Positions 9,379 to 49,557 of a DNA stretch of 49,557 nucleotides are shown in pieces. The position numbers and the translations under genes were made by a program. Numbering within the stretch: the stretch's first letter is position 1; every line of letters starts with the position of its first letter. Source of the stretch: Candidatus Frackibacter sp. WG13 (GTDB lineage: Bacteria > Bacillota > Halanaerobiia > Halobacteroidales > Acetohalobiaceae); assembly GCF_900114655.1 (NCBI RefSeq), contig NZ_FOTT01000024.1, positions 1 to 49,557 on the forward strand, written 5' to 3'. The notes under the pieces were generated by a model. That model did not search any database. It was not told where the DNA came from and was given only the letters and a program-made list of their open reading frames with translations.

Positions 9379-10794
9379 ATGGAATTAGCTTTATTACTTG
9401 ATATTGGGAGTACATATACTAAAGGGACAGTTGTAGACTTAGATAAAGTAGAAATAAAGGCTACGGCAAAAGCTTTAACGACAGTCAAAGATGATATTAA
9501 TATTGGTCTTAAAAATCTTTTTAAGCAACTAGAAGGTTTAGGAATTAGCTTAGATTCCATTGAACATCGGTTAGCTTGTAGTAGTGCAGCAGGTGGTTTG
9601 GAGATGGTAGCTGTTGGATTAGTACCAGACTTAACTGCTGAAGCTGCTAGAAGAGCGGCTTTAGGAGCAGGAGCAAAAGTAGCTAAGGTCTATTCTTATG
9701 AACTAACTGATAGTGAAGTAGAAGAGATTATTAAACAAAATCCTGATGTGGTTCTTTTGGCTGGGGGAACAGATGGTGGAAATCAAGATACTATCTTACA
9801 TAACGCTAAGATGTTAGCAACTTCAGAGTTAAATGCTCCAATTATAGTAGCTGGTAATAAAGTAGTAGCTGATGATGTGAAAAGTATCATACAGAATAGC
9901 AATAAGGAAGCTTATATTACTAAAAATGTCATGCCCAAGCTAGAAGAATTAAATATAGAACCTGCTAGAAAAAGAATAAGAGAACTTTTTTTAGATAAGA
10001 TTATTTATGCTAAGGGGTTAGCAAGAGTAGAGGAGTATATAGAACGGGTTGTGATGCCAACTCCATCAGCCGTAATGAAAGCAGCAGAGTTGATTGCTGA
10101 AGGAACTAATGAAGAAGGCTTAGGAGAATTAATGATTGTTGATATTGGTGGAGCGACAACTGATATTCATTCAGTAGCTGTTGGCCGCCCTACTAAAAGC
10201 GGGGTTAATCTTAAAGGATTAGAGGAGCCTTATGTAAAGAGAACAGTCGAAGGAGATTTAGGAATGAGGTATAGTGCATCTTCTTTAATAGAAGCTATTG
10301 ATAAGCAAGAAATATTAACCTATCTTCCAGATAGAGTAGACGAAGCAGAAGTAGTAAATTATATTAATAAGATTAATGAAGATGTTGATTATATTCCTGA
10401 TAATGAATTAGAAAGAGAATTAGACGCTGGGCTTGCAAAAGTAGCAACTAAATTAGCAATTGAGAGACACGTAGGAAAGATTGAGGTAGTTTATACTCCT
10501 TTCGGAGAAAGTTATGTGCAGTATGGGAAGGATTTAACTGATTTAAATCTAATGATAGGGACTGGTGGTATCCTAGTTCATAGTGAGCAACCGGGAAAGA
10601 TATTAAAGCAAGGGTTATTTAATGAAGATAATCCTACTAATTTAGCTCCTAAAAAGCCTAAACTAATGTTAGATAAAGAATATATTTTAGCATCCATTGG
10701 ATTATTAGCTGAAATTTCATTAGATAAAGCTTTTCAATTGGCTAAAAAACACCTTAAAGAGATAGGGGGAGAGATTGATGAAATTAAAGAATAA
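9379..10794 (+). CDS. glmL: Glutamate mutase reactivation factor GlmL/MutL
   Basis: The 471-residue product is an ASKHA-fold ATPase of the MutL family. It has an N-terminal phosphate-1 loop DIGSTYTKG, a central [11 protein letters not shown] segment and a second DIGGATTD loop near residue 253. It is thought to remove inactive cobalamin from glutamate mutase and restore activity, as diol dehydratase reactivases do. It lies between the two mutase subunit genes as in Clostridium tetanomorphum and overlaps glmE by about 17 bases. It is unrelated to the DNA mismatch repair protein MutL. The start at ATG 9379 follows GGGGTGAGG. Confidence 0.94.
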
Positions 10795-12226
10795 AAGATG
10801 GAATTTAGATAAATTTAAGGAAGTAAGAGAAGAAGTATTAAAGCAGTGGTCTACAGGTGAAGATGTAGACTTAGAAGAAGCAATTGAATATCATAAGGAC
10901 CTTCCTAAGAAAAAGGTTATGGCGGAGGTATTAGCTATAGCTAAAGAAGAGAAGGCTACATTAATTCAACCTCGCGCCGGGGTGGCTTTGATTGATGAAC
11001 ATATTGAGTTATTAAAATTTTTGCGAAAAGAAGGGCAAGCAGATTTATTGCCTAGTACTATAGATAGTTATACGCGGCAGAATAATTATCAAGAAGCAGA
11101 ACAAGGAATTAAAGAAAGTAGAAATGAAGGTCGTTCAATGTTAAATGGATTTCCGGCGGTAAATCATGGTGTTGATGGCTGTAGAAAGGTAGTTGAAGCT
11201 TTAGATGCCCCGTTACAAGTTAGACATGGAACGCCGGATGCTAGATTATTAGCTGAAATCGCTATTGCTGGTGGCTTTACTGATTATGAAGGTGGTGGAA
11301 TCTCTTATAATATTCCTTACGCTAAAGATGTCTCAATTAAACAGACTTTATATGATTGGCAGTATGTTGACCGTTTAATAGGTTATTATGAAGAACAGGG
11401 AGTGAAAATTAATAGAGAGCCTTTTGGACCATTAACTGGGACTTTAGTTCCACCATCAGTATCTCATAGTATAGCTATTATTGAAGGGTTATTAGCTGCT
11501 GAGCAGGGAGTTAAGAGCATTACGTTAGGCTATGGGCAGTGTGGAAATTTAGTTCAAGATGTGGCGGCTATCCATTCTTTGAAAGAATTAGCCGAAGAAT
11601 ATTTAGCAGAATATGATGACATAATGTTAACTACTGTCTTTCATCAATGGATGGGTGGTTTCCCACAAGATGAAGCACAAGCTTTTGGAGTGATTTCGTG
11701 GGGAGCGGCAACAGCAGCTTTGGCTAATGCTACAAAAGTTATTGTTAAAACCCCTCACGAAGCATTAGGCGTACCAACCAAAGAAGCCAATGCACAAGGG
11801 TTAAGAACGACTAAACAGTTAGTTAATATGTTAAAAGACCAACAATTTGTTGCTAAGGGATTATTAGAAGAAGAGAAGGAAATGATTAGAAAAGAGACCA
11901 AGCAAATTCTTAATCGAGTATTAGAATTAGGTGATGGTGATTTAGCTCAGGGCACAGTAAGAGCATTTGAAGCAGGAGTTTTAGATATTCCATTTGCTCC
12001 GAGTAAGTATAATGCAGGTAATTTACTTCCGGCTAGAGATAACAATGGAGCAATTCGTTATTTAAATCATGGGAACCTACCATTCTCAGAAGAAGTAATT
12101 AAATTTAATAAAGAACGGTTAGAAGAAAGAGGAAGAGACGAAGAAAGAGAACCAAGCTTCCAAATGGTAATTGATGATATCTATGCAATAGGCAAAGGGA
12201 TGTTGGTGGGAAAGCCTAGGAGTTAA
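10778..12226 (+). CDS. glmE: Glutamate mutase (methylaspartate mutase) subunit E
   Basis: The protein has 482 residues and is the large catalytic subunit, a TIM barrel binding glutamate and adenosylcobalamin. Conserved segments include [57 protein letters not shown] and [15 protein letters not shown]. With GlmS it performs the radical carbon-skeleton rearrangement of glutamate to 3-methylaspartate. ATG 10778 is preferred over the upstream in-frame TTG, because AGGGGGAGAG lies ahead of it and MKLKNKRW matches family N-termini. The gene is followed directly by the 86-bp tandem repeat. Confidence 0.96.
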
Positions 12227-12250
12227 CAGTTGACAGTTGACAGTTGACAG
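12227..12250. repeat. TTGACAG heptamer tandem repeat
   Basis: About three consecutive copies of the heptamer TTGACAG abut the glmE stop codon and run straight into the first 86-bp repeat. The remote copy at 31588 is also preceded by TTGACAG. Confidence 0.8.
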
Positions 12251-12522
12251 TGAAGCCCAGAAAAGAGCTTCCGAATTAGAAGCAGAGTCGATCGGAGGCT
12301 TGCGACCAGCTTCGAATTTTAAGCTGGGCGAGATAGTGAAGCCCAGAAAAGAGCTTCCGAATTAGAAGCAGAGTCGATCGGAGGCTTGCGACCAGCTTCG
12401 AATTTTAAGCTGGGCGAGACAGTGAAGCCCAGAAAAGAGCTTCCGAATTAGAAGCAGAGTCGATCGGAGGCTTGCGACCAGCCTCGAATTTTAAGCTGGG
12501 CGAGACAGTGAAGCCCAGAAAA
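12249..12522 (+). repeat. Three tandem copies of an 86-bp structured repeat plus a partial fourth
   Basis: Units start at 12249, 12335 and 12421, an exact 86-base period with only a few differences. A truncated fourth copy runs from 12507 to about 12522. Each begins AGTGAAGCCCAG. Each holds a GCTTC...GAAGC hairpin and a 3' CCAGCTT...AAGCTGG hairpin, while the outer CCCAG can pair with the terminal CTGGG. A fifth, diverged copy lies at 31588. The 12523-12597 stretch that follows is a purine-rich GAGGTT-type degenerate repeat ending in the mal ribosome site. Confidence 0.95.
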
Positions 12523-29299: not shown

Positions 29300-30751
29300 A
29301 TGGCGTATAAAAGTTTACGTGACTTTGTGAATTTATTAGAGAGTAAAGGTTTATTGAAAAGAATTAAGACGGAAGTAAGTAGTGATTTAGAGATTACGGA
29401 GATTACAGACCGGGTTTCAAAAGAAGTAGGACCGGCTTTATTATTTGAGAATGTAAAGGGTGCTGAATTTCCAGTCTTAATTAATGCTTTTGGGTCATAT
29501 GAGCGTATGGAAATGGCATTAGAAGTAGATGATTTAGATGATATTGGGGAACGAATTATGGAAGTGTTAGAGTTTCCTGATCCTAAAGATCAAGGCTTCT
29601 TTAGTAAGTTAAAGGTTTTACCAAAGTTAAAAGAGGTTTCGGATTATTTTCCGAAGACAATTAAGAGAGCCCCATGTCAAGAGGTAGTAAAGATGGAGCC
29701 GAATTTATCCGAACTACCGATTTTGAAATGTTGGCCTGAAGACGGAGGGAAGTTTATTACGCTGCCCTTAGTCTTTAGTGAGAATCCAGAAACAGGCATT
29801 CCTAATGCAGGTATGTATAGGTTACATGTCTATGATGATCAGACTACAGGTATGCATTGGCATATGCATAAGGATGGTGCTGATACCTATCGGGGCCATG
29901 AGTCAAAAGATGAAAGAATGGAAGTGGCTGTAGCTTTAGGTGGAGACCCAGCTACAATCTATTCTGCTACTGCTCCGTTGCCAAAGCAGATTGGTGAAAT
30001 GTTATTTGCTGGCTTTTTACGTAAGGAACCGGTAGAGATGGTTAAAGGTAAGACGGTAGATATTAAGGTTCCGGCGAATGCTGAAATTGTTATTGAAGGA
30101 TATGTTGATCCTTATGAACGAAGAATTGAAGGGCCATTTGGAGATCATACCGGTTATTATTCTTTAGCTGATGAGTACCCGGTCTTCCATGTAACCTGCA
30201 TTACTCATCGTAAGGATGCCATCTATCCAACAACGATCGTTGGTAAGCCGCCAATGGAAGATTGCTATATGGCAAAGGCAACTGAGCGCATATTCTTACC
30301 ATTACTAAAACTTCAATTGCCAGAAGTAGTAGATATGAACCTTCCGTTAGAAGGTGTCTTCCATAATTGTGCTATTCTTTCTATTGATAAGCAGTATCCT
30401 GGACATGCCCAGAAGGTAATGAATGCTGTTTGGGGAATGGGTCAGATGATGTTTACTAAGATGGTAGTGATTGTAGATAAAGATGTAGATGTTCAGAACT
30501 TATCAGAGGTTGCTTGGAAAGTCTTTAATAATATAGATGCTGAACGCGATTTAACAGTTGTCAAAGGGCCACTTGATATCTTAGATCATGCCTCACCACG
30601 ACCAAACTATGGTTCAAAATTAGGAATTGACGCTACCCAAGCTTGGCCGGGTGAAGGTCATAAGCGTGAATGGCCAAATGAGATAGAGATGAGTCAAGAG
30701 ATTAAAGATTTAGTAGATAAAAAGTGGGAGGAATATGGCCTTGAAGATTAA
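29300..30751 (+). CDS. UbiD-family prenyl-FMN-dependent decarboxylase (menaquinone pathway)
   Basis: The 483-residue protein is a UbiD-family decarboxylase. It begins YKSLRDFVNLLESKGLLKRI and carries the conserved MHWHMHKDGA region, an EGPFGDHTGYY segment containing the Arg/Glu-type catalytic surroundings, and the C-terminal DATQAWPGEG. UbiD enzymes need the prenylated FMN made by UbiX, encoded at the end of this cluster. In the futalosine pathway a UbiD homologue is thought to decarboxylate the 1,4-dihydroxy-6-naphthoate intermediate after prenylation. The gene overlaps the UbiA-like gene by 17 bases. Confidence 0.93.
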   Translation: MAYKSLRDFVNLLESKGLLKRIKTEVSSDLEITEITDRVSKEVGPALLFENVKGAEFPVLINAFGSYERMEMALEVDDLDDIGERIMEVLEFPDPKDQGFFSKLKVLPKLKEVSDYFPKTIKRAPCQEVVKMEPNLSELPILKCWPEDGGKFITLPLVFSENPETGIPNAGMYRLHVYDDQTTGMHWHMHKDGADTYRGHESKDERMEVAVALGGDPATIYSATAPLPKQIGEMLFAGFLRKEPVEMVKGKTVDIKVPANAEIVIEGYVDPYERRIEGPFGDHTGYYSLADEYPVFHVTCITHRKDAIYPTTIVGKPPMEDCYMAKATERIFLPLLKLQLPEVVDMNLPLEGVFHNCAILSIDKQYPGHAQKVMNAVWGMGQMMFTKMVVIVDKDVDVQNLSEVAWKVFNNIDAERDLTVVKGPLDILDHASPRPNYGSKLGIDATQAWPGEGHKREWPNEIEMSQEIKDLVDKKWEEYGLED

Positions 30752-31586
30752 GTTAATTATGAAATTAGTTAAATTTGAGCATACTATTTTTGCTCTTCCC
30801 TTTGCTTACATGGGGGCGGTATTAGCTGCCCAAGGAATTCCAAGTTGGGGAAAGGTCTTATGGATCACTTTAGCTATGGTAGGGGCAAGGAGTGCTGCCA
30901 TGGCTTGGAATCGCTTAGTAGATTGGGAGATAGATGCAGATAATCCTCGGACCAAGGATAGGGTTTTACCTAAAAATCTCTTATCGAGATTAGAGGTTGT
31001 TATCTTTATTATTGCTTCTTTAACATTATTGTTAATTTCGGCTTGGAATTTAAATCCGTTAGCTTTTAAATTGTCGCCTTTGGCTGTTTTCTTATTAATT
31101 TTTTATTCTTATACTAAACGTTTTACTTGGCTTTGCCACTTAGTATTAGGTTTTACATTAGGAATGGCACCAGTAGGTAGTTGGATTGGAGTAACCGGTC
31201 AAATTTCCTTAGCTCCTTTTTTAGTAGGGATAGCAGTAATGTTCTGGGTAGCAGGTTTTGATATTATTTATGCTATTCAAGATTATGAATTTGACCAGGA
31301 GCATGGACTTTATTCCATTCCAGCTAAATTTGGACCGCAGACTTCTTTAAGAGTTACAGTAATCTTTCATACTATTACTTTTTTACTATTAACATTCGTT
31401 GGTTTTTATTTAAACTTAAGTTGGTTTTATGCAATTGGGATCTTAATTGTTGGAATTTTACTTTATGTCGAGAATACCTTAGTTAAGTCTGATTTTGAAA
31501 AGGTTAAGTTTGCTTTTTTTAATATTAATAGTGTAGTAAGTATTACTATTTTTGTTTTTACATTAGCTGACTATCTTTTTAGTTGA
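30735..31586 (+). CDS. mqnP: UbiA-family prenyltransferase (MqnP-like)
   Basis: This 283-residue integral membrane protein has about eight hydrophobic segments and both aspartate-rich motifs of UbiA prenyltransferases: NRLVDWEIDADNPRT at 59-73 and DIIYAIQDYEFD around residue 172. It attaches a polyprenyl chain to the aromatic intermediate. Placement between UbiD and MqnE suggests the MqnP role in futalosine-type menaquinone synthesis rather than a 4-hydroxybenzoate function. GGGAGGAAT precedes the ATG. An 86-bp repeat begins one base after its stop codon. Confidence 0.9.
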   Translation: MALKIKLIMKLVKFEHTIFALPFAYMGAVLAAQGIPSWGKVLWITLAMVGARSAAMAWNRLVDWEIDADNPRTKDRVLPKNLLSRLEVVIFIIASLTLLLISAWNLNPLAFKLSPLAVFLLIFYSYTKRFTWLCHLVLGFTLGMAPVGSWIGVTGQISLAPFLVGIAVMFWVAGFDIIYAIQDYEFDQEHGLYSIPAKFGPQTSLRVTVIFHTITFLLLTFVGFYLNLSWFYAIGILIVGILLYVENTLVKSDFEKVKFAFFNINSVVSITIFVFTLADYLFS

Positions 31587-31587
31587 C

Positions 31588-31673
31588 AGTGAAGCCCAGA
31601 AAAGAGCTTTCGAATTAGAAGCAGAGTCTATCATAGGCTTGCAGCCAGCCTTGATTTTTAGGCTGGGTGAGAT
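31588..31673 (+). repeat. Remote single copy of the 86-bp structured repeat
   Basis: This copy is exactly 86 bases and opens AGTGAAGCCCAGAAAAGAGC, as in the three tandem units near 12249. It differs at about 15 positions. In the 3' hairpin the arms change to CCAGCCT...AGGCTGG, so both sides of the stem changed together and pairing is kept. It abuts a stop codon, as the first copy nearly does. Confidence 0.92.
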
Positions 31674-31710
31674 AGTTAAAACCATTAAAACATTAAGGTC
31701 ATGAAAAAGT

Positions 31711-31868
31711 AATTAGACACAGACTAACACAGACTAATACAGACTAAAAAATAAGATTAAGGATAAATAAGCTTATGATAGCTATTGCTTCTGATTTGTT
31801 AGTCTTTTGTTGAATTTTACTAACACTTATTTTTAAAAATAAAGTCTTGTGTACAGTCTGTGTCAAAT
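31711..31868. repeat. GACACAGACT-rich intergenic element, copy A
   Basis: The left part holds GACACAGACT, then two more CAGACT copies and AAGATTAAGGATAA. The right part holds AAGTCTTGTGT and the inverted AGTCTGTGTC. A related element lies at 40176. The two ends can pair, giving a long imperfect hairpin. With the 86-bp copy this fills the 361-base gap before mqnE. No promoter was recognised with confidence. Confidence 0.6.
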
Positions 31869-47786: not shown

Positions 47787-48203
47787 GTACGCCAAGCAAG
47801 TTTGATATTTCTGGCAAGGTGAAGCCGTCTACTAGAGTAGACTTAGGATAATATCGATTATGAGAGATTACAACAGAACCAACGTAAATAGCTCAATGGT
47901 AAGAGCTTAAAAGATCGCCGACAGAAGGTCCACCTTTCACTACCTCACTGTCTTTGGTAAAGTGAAGGTCGTTCAATGGTTTGAGTAATATTTTAATTAG
48001 TCAATATATCTGATAACAGTCTTTGCTAGGTAAGGACTAACCATCCACCTATATCGAGTGTTGCGCTTTGAATTGGTAACAATTCAGGTGAAGTGTACAC
48101 AGAGAACTTTTTAGGCCAGAGGGAAGACCGTAATTCCTGAAGCATATTGAGCCCCGTTAGTATCGGGTCCTGGAAACAGGAGAAGAGCAGATGACGACGT
48201 AGT

Positions 48204-48210
48204 TAACGTT
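48204..48210 (+). other. Putative EBS1 of the group II intron
   Basis: TAACGTT is the exact complement of the last seven exon bases (47780-47786), the predicted IBS1. Confidence 0.6.
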
Positions 48211-48450
48211 GCGGAAGTCAATACGAAGGAATTGTAAAAGGTGAGATTCCGGAGGGTCTGTCGGGGTCAGAGAACCTGGCATGAAGAGAAAGAAATATCA
48301 GGAATTTGGGAGGTCCTACAGGTTCCAATGATTATTGGAAGGTCTATCCAATCGAAAAAGAGGACGACCTGCGACTTGTAGGAAGTCGGATTAACTCATA
48401 GTACTCTGAGACCAGGAGAGCTGGTTACATGGGGAAGGGGTGACAGAAAT

Positions 48451-49557
48451 ATGTACTCATCAAAGGAAACACTAACCGGACGCGCAAGGCCGGAGCAATT
48501 AGTGCAAACCTCACTGAAGGGAATAGCAAAGAAAGCAAAACGACTCAAAAAGTATAGATTTCGTGACCTATATAGGCAGATAAACCATAGTGCTTTAAGT
48601 AAAGCTTGGGATAACATAAATAAGAAAGCAGCCGCAGGAGTAGATAAAATAACTGCCAAAGAATTTGCTAAAAACTTAAAAGATAATATTGAAAGTATAT
48701 TAGATAGCTTAATAGGTAAGCGATATCATGCAAAGATGGTACGTAGAGTGAATATAGAAAAGGACAATGGGAAACTTCGTCCACTGGGGATTCCAGTAGT
48801 TGCCGATAAAATAGTACAAAGAGCAACAGCCGATATATTAGAAGCAATTTATGAACAAGATTTTATAGATAATAGCTATGGATATAGACCAAACCGTGAT
48901 TCAAAAGTAGCAATAAAATCTTTAACAAAAGAATTACAGTTTGGCAAATACAGTTACATAGTTGAAGCAGATATCAAAGGATTTTTCGATAACATAGACC
49001 ATGATTGGTTAATAGAAATGTTAAAACAAAGAGTTAATGATAAAGAATTTATAAGGCTAATCAAGAAATGGTTAAAAGCTGGGATATTAAAAGAAGATGG
49101 ACAAGTCATTCATCCAGTTACAGGAACTCCTCAAGGTGGCATAATAAGTCCCATTCTAGCAAATATCTATCTACACTACGTATTAGATATCTGGTTTATA
49201 GGAAAAGTTAAGAAAGAATGTGCAGGTGAAGCCCATCTATGTCGTTACGCTGATGACTTTGTTTGTGCTTTTAGGTACAAAAGAGATGCAGAACGATTTT
49301 ATCACATGTTACAAAAGAGACTAAATAAATTTGGTCTAGCACTTTCATTGGAAAAGACAAATATAATCAGTTTCTCTAGATTCCGTAAATATGAAAATAA
49401 TAGCTTTGAATTTCTAGGGTTCGAGATGCGTTGGGGAACTTCAAGGAAAGGTAAGGACATAATTAAAAGGAGAACTTCACGCAAGAAACTAAGAAAATCA
49501 CTTAAGAATTTTACTAAGTGGTGCAAAGAAAATAGGAATAAGCGACTCAGAAGTTTG
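48451..49557 (+). CDS. ltrA: Group II intron reverse transcriptase/maturase (3' end outside window)
   Basis: The frame is open from ATG 48451 to the window end, giving 369 residues without a stop. It contains the RT domains in order: GKLRPLGIPVVADKIVQRA (RT2a-2), SYGYRPNRDS, VEADIKGFFDNIDHD with the first catalytic Asp (173), GTPQGGIISPILANIYLHYVLD, and the RYADDF catalytic box (YADD 266-269), followed by SLEKTNIISF and FEFLGFEM and the start of the thumb/maturase X domain. It performs splicing assistance and target-primed reverse transcription. Ribosome site GGGGAAGGGGTG lies ahead of the ATG. Whether a C-terminal endonuclease domain exists cannot be seen. Confidence 0.93.
   Translation, partial: MYSSKETLTGRARPEQLVQTSLKGIAKKAKRLKKYRFRDLYRQINHSALSKAWDNINKKAAAGVDKITAKEFAKNLKDNIESILDSLIGKRYHAKMVRRVNIEKDNGKLRPLGIPVVADKIVQRATADILEAIYEQDFIDNSYGYRPNRDSKVAIKSLTKELQFGKYSYIVEADIKGFFDNIDHDWLIEMLKQRVNDKEFIRLIKKWLKAGILKEDGQVIHPVTGTPQGGIISPILANIYLHYVLDIWFIGKVKKECAGEAHLCRYADDFVCAFRYKRDAERFYHMLQKRLNKFGLALSLEKTNIISFSRFRKYENNSFEFLGFEMRWGTSRKGKDIIKRRTSRKKLRKSLKNFTKWCKENRNKRLRSL

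Follow-up and report, generated by a model that had tools for sequence, protein, structure and literature searches.

A structured repeat behind glmE and a UbiA-family gene, probably a mobile family with a 3' hairpin end in the Halanaerobiales

The window analysed here, a 49,557-nucleotide stretch of a Candidatus Frackibacter sp. WG13 contig, carries a tandem array of a structured repeat behind glmE and a single diverged copy behind a UbiA-family prenyltransferase gene (Table 1). Both had been described in an earlier note on this DNA. The array was analysed using TRF, which confirmed an exact period of 86 with 3.2 copies and 98% matches, and the remote copy was verified by BLAST, with 88% identity to unit 1. 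Despite the exact period the units differ in sequence, with GATAGT replacing GACAGT in unit 2 and CCAGCCT replacing CCAGCTT in unit 3. The stub that closes the array also terminates arrays at other loci. The TTGACAG heptamers that lead from the glmE stop codon into the first unit belong to a set of arrays with approximately 100 matches genome-wide, which occur both with and without the 86-mer. The earlier note stated that all copies follow a TTGACAG and abut stop codons. The first part holds for unit 1 and the remote copy, whereas units 2 and 3 are preceded by GCGA-GATAG/GACAG, which is the tail of the preceding unit. The second part holds for the UbiA-family gene, where the stop codon TGA (31584-31586) lies within TTGACAG and is thus supplied by the leader of the element, but not for the array, which begins about 20 nt past the glmE stop (12224-12226).

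Table 1. Coordinates within the window of the repeat units, their structural parts and the genes upstream of them.
Feature	Position	Strand	Evidence or remark
glmE (glutamate/methylaspartate mutase E chain), upstream of array	10775..12226	+	Pfam PF06368, 1.4e-232
Heptamer array (TTGACAG)n, glmE stop codon to first unit	12221..12251	+	TRF period 7, 4.4 copies
glmE 3' array	12246-12522	+	3 units and 19-base stub
Unit 1 (GACAGT and 80-base core)	12246..12331	+	covariance-model match, 116.8 bits
5' domain, unit 1	12253..12301	+	RNAalifold; stem AAGCC 12253-12257/GGCTT 12297-12301, inner hairpin
3' hairpin, unit 1, CCAGCTTCGAATTTTAAGCTGG	12306..12327	+	pattern search; covariation
Unit 2	12332..12417	+	covariance-model match, 114.3 bits
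Unit 3, one-sided stem change	12418..12503	+	covariance-model match, 111.9 bits
3' hairpins, units 2 and 3	12392-12413, 12478-12499	+	pattern search
Stub of fourth unit, 19 bases, GACAGTGAAGCCCAGAAAA	12504..12522	+	TRF/BLAST
UbiA-family prenyltransferase gene, upstream of remote copy	30735..31586	+	Pfam PF01040, 1.4e-60
Single diverged copy 3' of UbiA-family gene	31584..31676	+	covariance-model match, 118.3 bits
3' hairpin of remote copy, CCAGCCTTGATTTTTAGGCTGG	31645..31666	+	pattern search

The unit folds into a 5' domain, closed by AAGCC/GGCTT round an irregular hairpin, followed by a 3' hairpin of the form CCAGCYT-loop-ARGCTGG. This hairpin (CCAGCYTTGNNTTTTARGCTGG in the family) marks the right end of each unit and is preceded by GCGA, ATGA or CACA, GTAG being absent; the reversed-pattern control of the hairpin search gave 0 matches in every genome. 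The two-sided stem change reported earlier, from CCAGCTT/AAGCTGG in units 1 and 2 to CCAGCCT/AGGCTGG in the remote copy, is real, and unit 3 does show the one-sided intermediate, CCAGCCT/AAGCTGG with a C.A mismatch. Subfamilies have swapped stems with the pairing kept (GAGCT/AGCTC, GAACC/GGTTC, TCAGCTT/AAGCTGA and CAGTCTT/AGACTG). Covariation was examined in a MAFFT alignment of 39 copies made blind to structure, in which 88% of cells were paired and double changes were present at 15 of the 21 pairs. There were 105 double-change cells compared to 37 in the shuffled and at most 32 in the slid controls, cells which are non-independent events as the copies of this genome share recent ancestry. 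The arms of the closing stem are more than 40 nt apart, yet four of its five pairs covary, and a model-fitted alignment gave double changes at 18 of the 21 pairs. The fold of the family is conserved, with compensatory changes in excess of both controls, and the cause of these changes may be selection or correction at the DNA level.

Covarying intergenic repeats need not be regulatory RNAs, and a conserved structure does not identify the + strand RNA as the active form. When mismatched pairs were tallied per helix, G-U and A-C were equally rare in the two best helices (8 and 8), and because G-U is not in excess over A-C there the fold may matter as DNA and not as RNA. Helix 3 gave 28 G-U against 6 A-C, a preference that would fit RNA and counts against the DNA reading. 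The suggestion in the earlier note of a family of small RNAs was not borne out, as no promoter-like site was found at the array and G-U did not exceed A-C in the two best helices. No terminator-like site was found on the + strand at the array, where no T-run follows the hairpin, and identity as an intrinsic terminator was rejected on this ground. The terminator-like site at 31635-31651 uses a pairing different from the family fold.

BLAST revealed 61 matches in the 2.77-Mb draft genome, the best at 7e-43, which excludes chance. An initial covariance model was built from 19 units and also matched diverged copies in other genera. A broader model, built from 39 copies and used with a cut-off of E up to 0.001, gave at least 48 strong matches at about 35 loci of this genome, at least 22 in a related genus (G004) and at least 1-4 in each of seven other genomes of the order; the counts are lower bounds because the scan scores part of each genome's candidates, and the E-values are rough. 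The family is present in 9 of the 13 Halanaerobiales genomes, all relatives compared being draft genomes, and the model found it in none of the 46 genomes from the rest of the class at the same cut-off. Within the genomes scanned the family is confined to the Halanaerobiales, a salt-loving order identified here from the nearest named GlmE relatives, Fuchsiella and Natroniella (80-82% identical). The genome-wide search and covariance model proposed in the earlier note therefore led to a structured family, and neither a lack of further copies nor a lack of compensation was found, given the genome-wide spread and the real compensatory changes.

In the Rfam search no family reached its gathering score at the repeat; when E was relaxed to 5 the matches were at chance level, far below gathering, and none lay at the copy from this genome. 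Plasmid and phage collections gave 0 family matches, viral contigs 0 matches by pattern and a strict-pattern scan of a genome-contig collection 0 matches, and a description of the family was not found in the open-licence literature. The family adds an unlisted structured entry for Rfam-type annotation of Halanaerobiales. A long variant of the unit, in which an inserted module GCAGAATTTATTCACGTCAG...CTGTAAGGAG separates the 5' domain from the 3' hairpin, was seen at L021, L030, L011, L012, L032 and L041, and also in genus G004.

The insertion sites were compared between relatives. The spacer between the UbiA-family gene and the CofH/MqnC-like gene is 361 nt with the element here, and about 23, 24, 42 and 74 nt in four relatives that lack it. 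The glmE-mal spacer is empty in Fuchsiella (about 30 nt), holds only heptamers in Natroniella and contains four 58-bp hairpin units in G004. A 94-nt element carried by aroQ in G004 is absent in four relatives, and within this genome paralogous sites of the form TTGACAGT|TAAAACCATTAAAA occur both with and without the 86-mer between the two halves. The UbiA site empty in four relatives, the glmE site empty in Fuchsiella and a copy situated within a cobalamin riboswitch indicate, from comparison of the sequences, that the elements have moved. On balance we consider it probable that both the array and the remote copy are members of a non-coding, non-autonomous mobile repeat family with a 3' hairpin end, confined to the order. 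Mobility of this kind accounts for the scattered copies and the empty sites, and also for the fold and the location behind genes. Neither a transposase nor any other enzyme could be linked to the family, the Y1 genes examined being IS200/IS605-like.

Of 26 loci examined in this genome, 23 have the copy in sense orientation relative to the preceding gene or tRNA and usually no more than about 60 nt from its end, and the three antisense copies lie between or beside genes of opposite direction. The location of copies behind stop codons is proposed to follow from the gene being spared by insertion at such sites, where the element or its flanking copy would supply a working end or stop. The sense orientation would also be expected of a functional 3'-UTR RNA element, in which the fold protects or processes mRNA 3' ends and so keeps the copies sense behind genes. 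The strong covariation and the G-U preference of helix 3 are consistent with such an element, as is a 3' hairpin that has no U-tract and so is no simple + strand terminator. The orientation of the element, however, matches GC skew at every locus, so that gene direction and leading strand are inseparable and the arrangement may be linked to replication. For the mRNA stabiliser named in the earlier note, which the sense orientation would support, the same confounding with the leading strand applies. The equal G-U and A-C numbers in the two best helices also speak against an RNA role, the host genes are unrelated and occur without the element in relatives, and several copies in relatives are antisense, often beginning just upstream of a ribosome-binding site beside start codons. 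A functional 3'-UTR element is therefore regarded as unlikely, although it is an alternative to be taken seriously.

The junctions follow a rule. At 20 of 22 loci with tandem or flanked copies, the right copy begins 2-5 nt past the 3' hairpin; in the main subfamily it begins with GACAGT. Several loci, most of them in relatives, have the 3' end of the host gene itself as the repeated stretch, and several of these right copies begin with GAGG. The genes, whose names for aroQ, cobT, cysD and metK were read from translations, are aroQ in G004 (60 bp duplicated with one mismatch), cobT in this genome (C13, 26 identical bp), cysD in two genera (G002 and G004), metK in this genome (C4) and glmE in G004. 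The copies in the window have only the 6-bp direct repeat GACAGT and no long duplication. The duplicated ends were compared with empty orthologs for aroQ, in four relatives. The downstream aroQ copy keeps the aspartate of the relatives, and the upstream copy carries asparagine and terminates in SEVW supplied by the element, so that the downstream copy looks native.

Under the mobile-repeat reading, new material would be joined, 2-5 nt past the 3' hairpin, to a site lying tens of bases upstream. In heptamer tracts behind genes this would generate 86-bp tandem units sharing GACAGT, and at gene ends the element would come to lie between two copies of the gene's 3' end. The fold is proposed to be kept because it serves the spreading process for recognition or as the junction, and it would act as folded DNA more probably than as a regulatory RNA; recognition of the hairpin by an enzyme, a process acting on DNA and the reason that gene ends are hit are all suggested by this reading. 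In a more specific form, a hairpin-right-ended element would enter the 3' ends of housekeeping genes and leave a replacement end, with the native end displaced behind the hairpin. The mechanism, either target-primed reverse transcription or hairpin-guided strand transfer, would have no known precedent among small bacterial repeats. We hold this form to be rather doubtful.

The junction rule also fits polymerase slippage induced by the hairpin without any enzyme. The repeat could be passive DNA, whose hairpin stalls the polymerase and causes slippage and template switching at short homologies; the arrays, fractional units and gene-end duplications would then be by-products, and the covariation would arise through quasi-palindrome correction and not selection. 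Unit numbers are indeed fractional and 3' ends ragged, several truncations fall just before the 3' hairpin, right copies often begin with the GAGG or GACAGT of the host, and a short 61-bp unit has lost the hairpin between AGGCT repeats. Slippage alone, however, does not spread an 80-base core to about 35 unrelated loci or to another genus, where the core is 88% identical, and the closing stem covaries at four of five pairs despite the distance between its arms. A purely passive origin is thus judged quite improbable, and the arrays and ragged ends of a mobile family probably owe something to slippage or template switching at the hairpin.

The cysD duplications are a difficulty for mobility. 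At both loci (L193 in G002 and L251 in G004) the two copies encode GLEELRKEGYM and differ at 10 of 36 bases in G002 and 4 of 36 in G004, all silently; under random placement, differences that are only silent have P<1e-5 and about 0.003, respectively. In G002 an in-frame stop codon precedes the downstream copy. Judged from these substitutions, the downstream copies look coding-constrained though untranslated now, and the downstream copy must have been a working gene end recently, or occasionally regains that role. Unless the events are recent, the cysD copies are not accounted for by simple insertion, and this counts against the mobile reading.

Long duplications would also be expected of a small retroelement, where a trans-acting reverse transcriptase uses a target-primed reaction to copy the element's RNA, ending just past the 3' hairpin, into gene ends, giving target duplications of variable length and 5'-shortened copies. 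The fixed 3' end at the hairpin, the variable 5' extent, the duplications of 26-60 bp and the GAGG common to tail and target at several sites agree with this, and the window itself contains a group II intron with a reverse-transcriptase-like ORF, whose product is a speculative candidate for the mobilising enzyme. On the other side, no reverse transcriptase is tied to the element, the main subfamily has a uniform 5' end with raggedness on the 3' side of arrays, and the recoded cysD copy is left unexplained. A retroelement is judged highly improbable.

The family was compared with known repeat systems. REPs and REPINs consist of a palindrome of 20-50 nt directly preceded by GTAG or a related tetranucleotide (PMC8266576). 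The REP-like character proposed in the earlier note stands loosely, as small hairpins are interspersed between genes at high copy number, in tandem arrays and often behind stops as in REP, BIME and REPIN repeats; it fails in that the unit is about 86 bp with two domains and GTAG is absent. No RAYT was recognised, although a divergent one may be present. The arrays are also head-to-tail only, unlike BIMEs, with no REP-inverse REP pairs. Mobilisation by a RAYT (TnpA-REP) transposase might be considered given the small intergenic hairpins and the Y1_Tnp domains that exist in the genome. The search for a RAYT gene, however, returned among Y1 genes only TnpA/TnpB of IS200/IS605 type: two matches are IS200/IS605-like TnpA beside TnpB and three are partial, and the Y1 genes adjoin TnpB-like or partial ORFs. 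Long duplications do not fit Y1 chemistry, and we know of no gene-end duplication for REPs. With the GTAG tag lacking at the hairpin foot, which refutes it on that feature, and no inverse pairs, a RAYT-driven family is extremely improbable.

MITE-type repeats are non-autonomous, foldable and intergenic, shorter than 200 bp, and sometimes extend coding ends (PMC2229807). The present family resembles such elements (ERIC/IRU, RUP, Correia and Rickettsia palindromic elements) in being non-autonomous, under 200 bp, foldable and inserted between genes, but conserved terminal inverted repeats, GCCCAG/CTGGGC, occur in the main subfamily only. It differs further in that one end is fixed by a hairpin, the unit shows no duplicated TA dinucleotide and there is no fixed target duplication of 2-11 bp, the duplications being 6 bp (GACAGT) at heptamers and 26-60 bp at cobT and aroQ. 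Cyanobacterial STRR (short tandemly repeated) heptamers form arrays between genes like the TTGACAG tracts, but have another sequence, and the heptamer here does no more than provide a structured unit with a landing site or leader. Elements of the IS200/IS605 kind and their PATE-like miniature derivatives likewise have a hairpin near an end and are strand-directional, and genes of IS605 type are present in the genome; the hairpin and ends of the family do not match the IS ends read at the IS200/IS605-type loci, and IS200/IS605 ends were rejected as a parent for want of similarity. To our knowledge IS200/IS605 elements make no target duplication. Small interspersed repeats are common, and how they spread is mostly obscure. 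Hairpin-guided insertion is open to a direct test in this family, which offers filled as well as empty sites across five related genomes, a junction fixed at a hairpin and conserved genes whose ends have been duplicated.

Two further candidates were set aside. An S23 four-helix-bundle protein was rejected as driver as it is single-copy, and an origin of the core in glmE, where GAAGCCCAGAAAAG resembles GKPR codons, was abandoned, since the 5' domain is common to diverged copies in other genera.

Several minor features were observed. In this genome an element with heptamers lies inside a peripheral arm of a cobalamin riboswitch (L212:867-1212, C13), the core of which is intact with an RF00174 match of 74 bits, and a heptamer array adjoins a glmS ribozyme/riboswitch (L185:7657-7825). 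A diverged copy was also seen where a UDP-glucose dehydrogenase-like gene starts (L197, G009 C23), with approximately 38 bp across the ribosome-binding site and first codons duplicated on either side. Inverted pairs of TTGACAG heptamers bracket intergenic spacers in the form stop-TAGTTGACAG ... CTGTCAACTA-start (window 12221-12251, L162:15604/15732, L176:11035/11214, L180:7980/8051, L181:2326/2592 and L187:361/581), and inverted heptamer arrays also occur behind glmE in Natroniella. The pairs are possibly a separate repeat with TA ends; a MITE with terminal inverted repeats and TA ends is suggestive for the heptamers and does not define the 86-mer. Hexamers of GGTTAAGG lie directly 3' of many arrays, and short tandem repeats with ACACAGACTA units occupy 31717-31747 of the window. 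The group II intron is located at 48016-49557, with its reverse-transcriptase-like ORF running from 48451 past the contig end.
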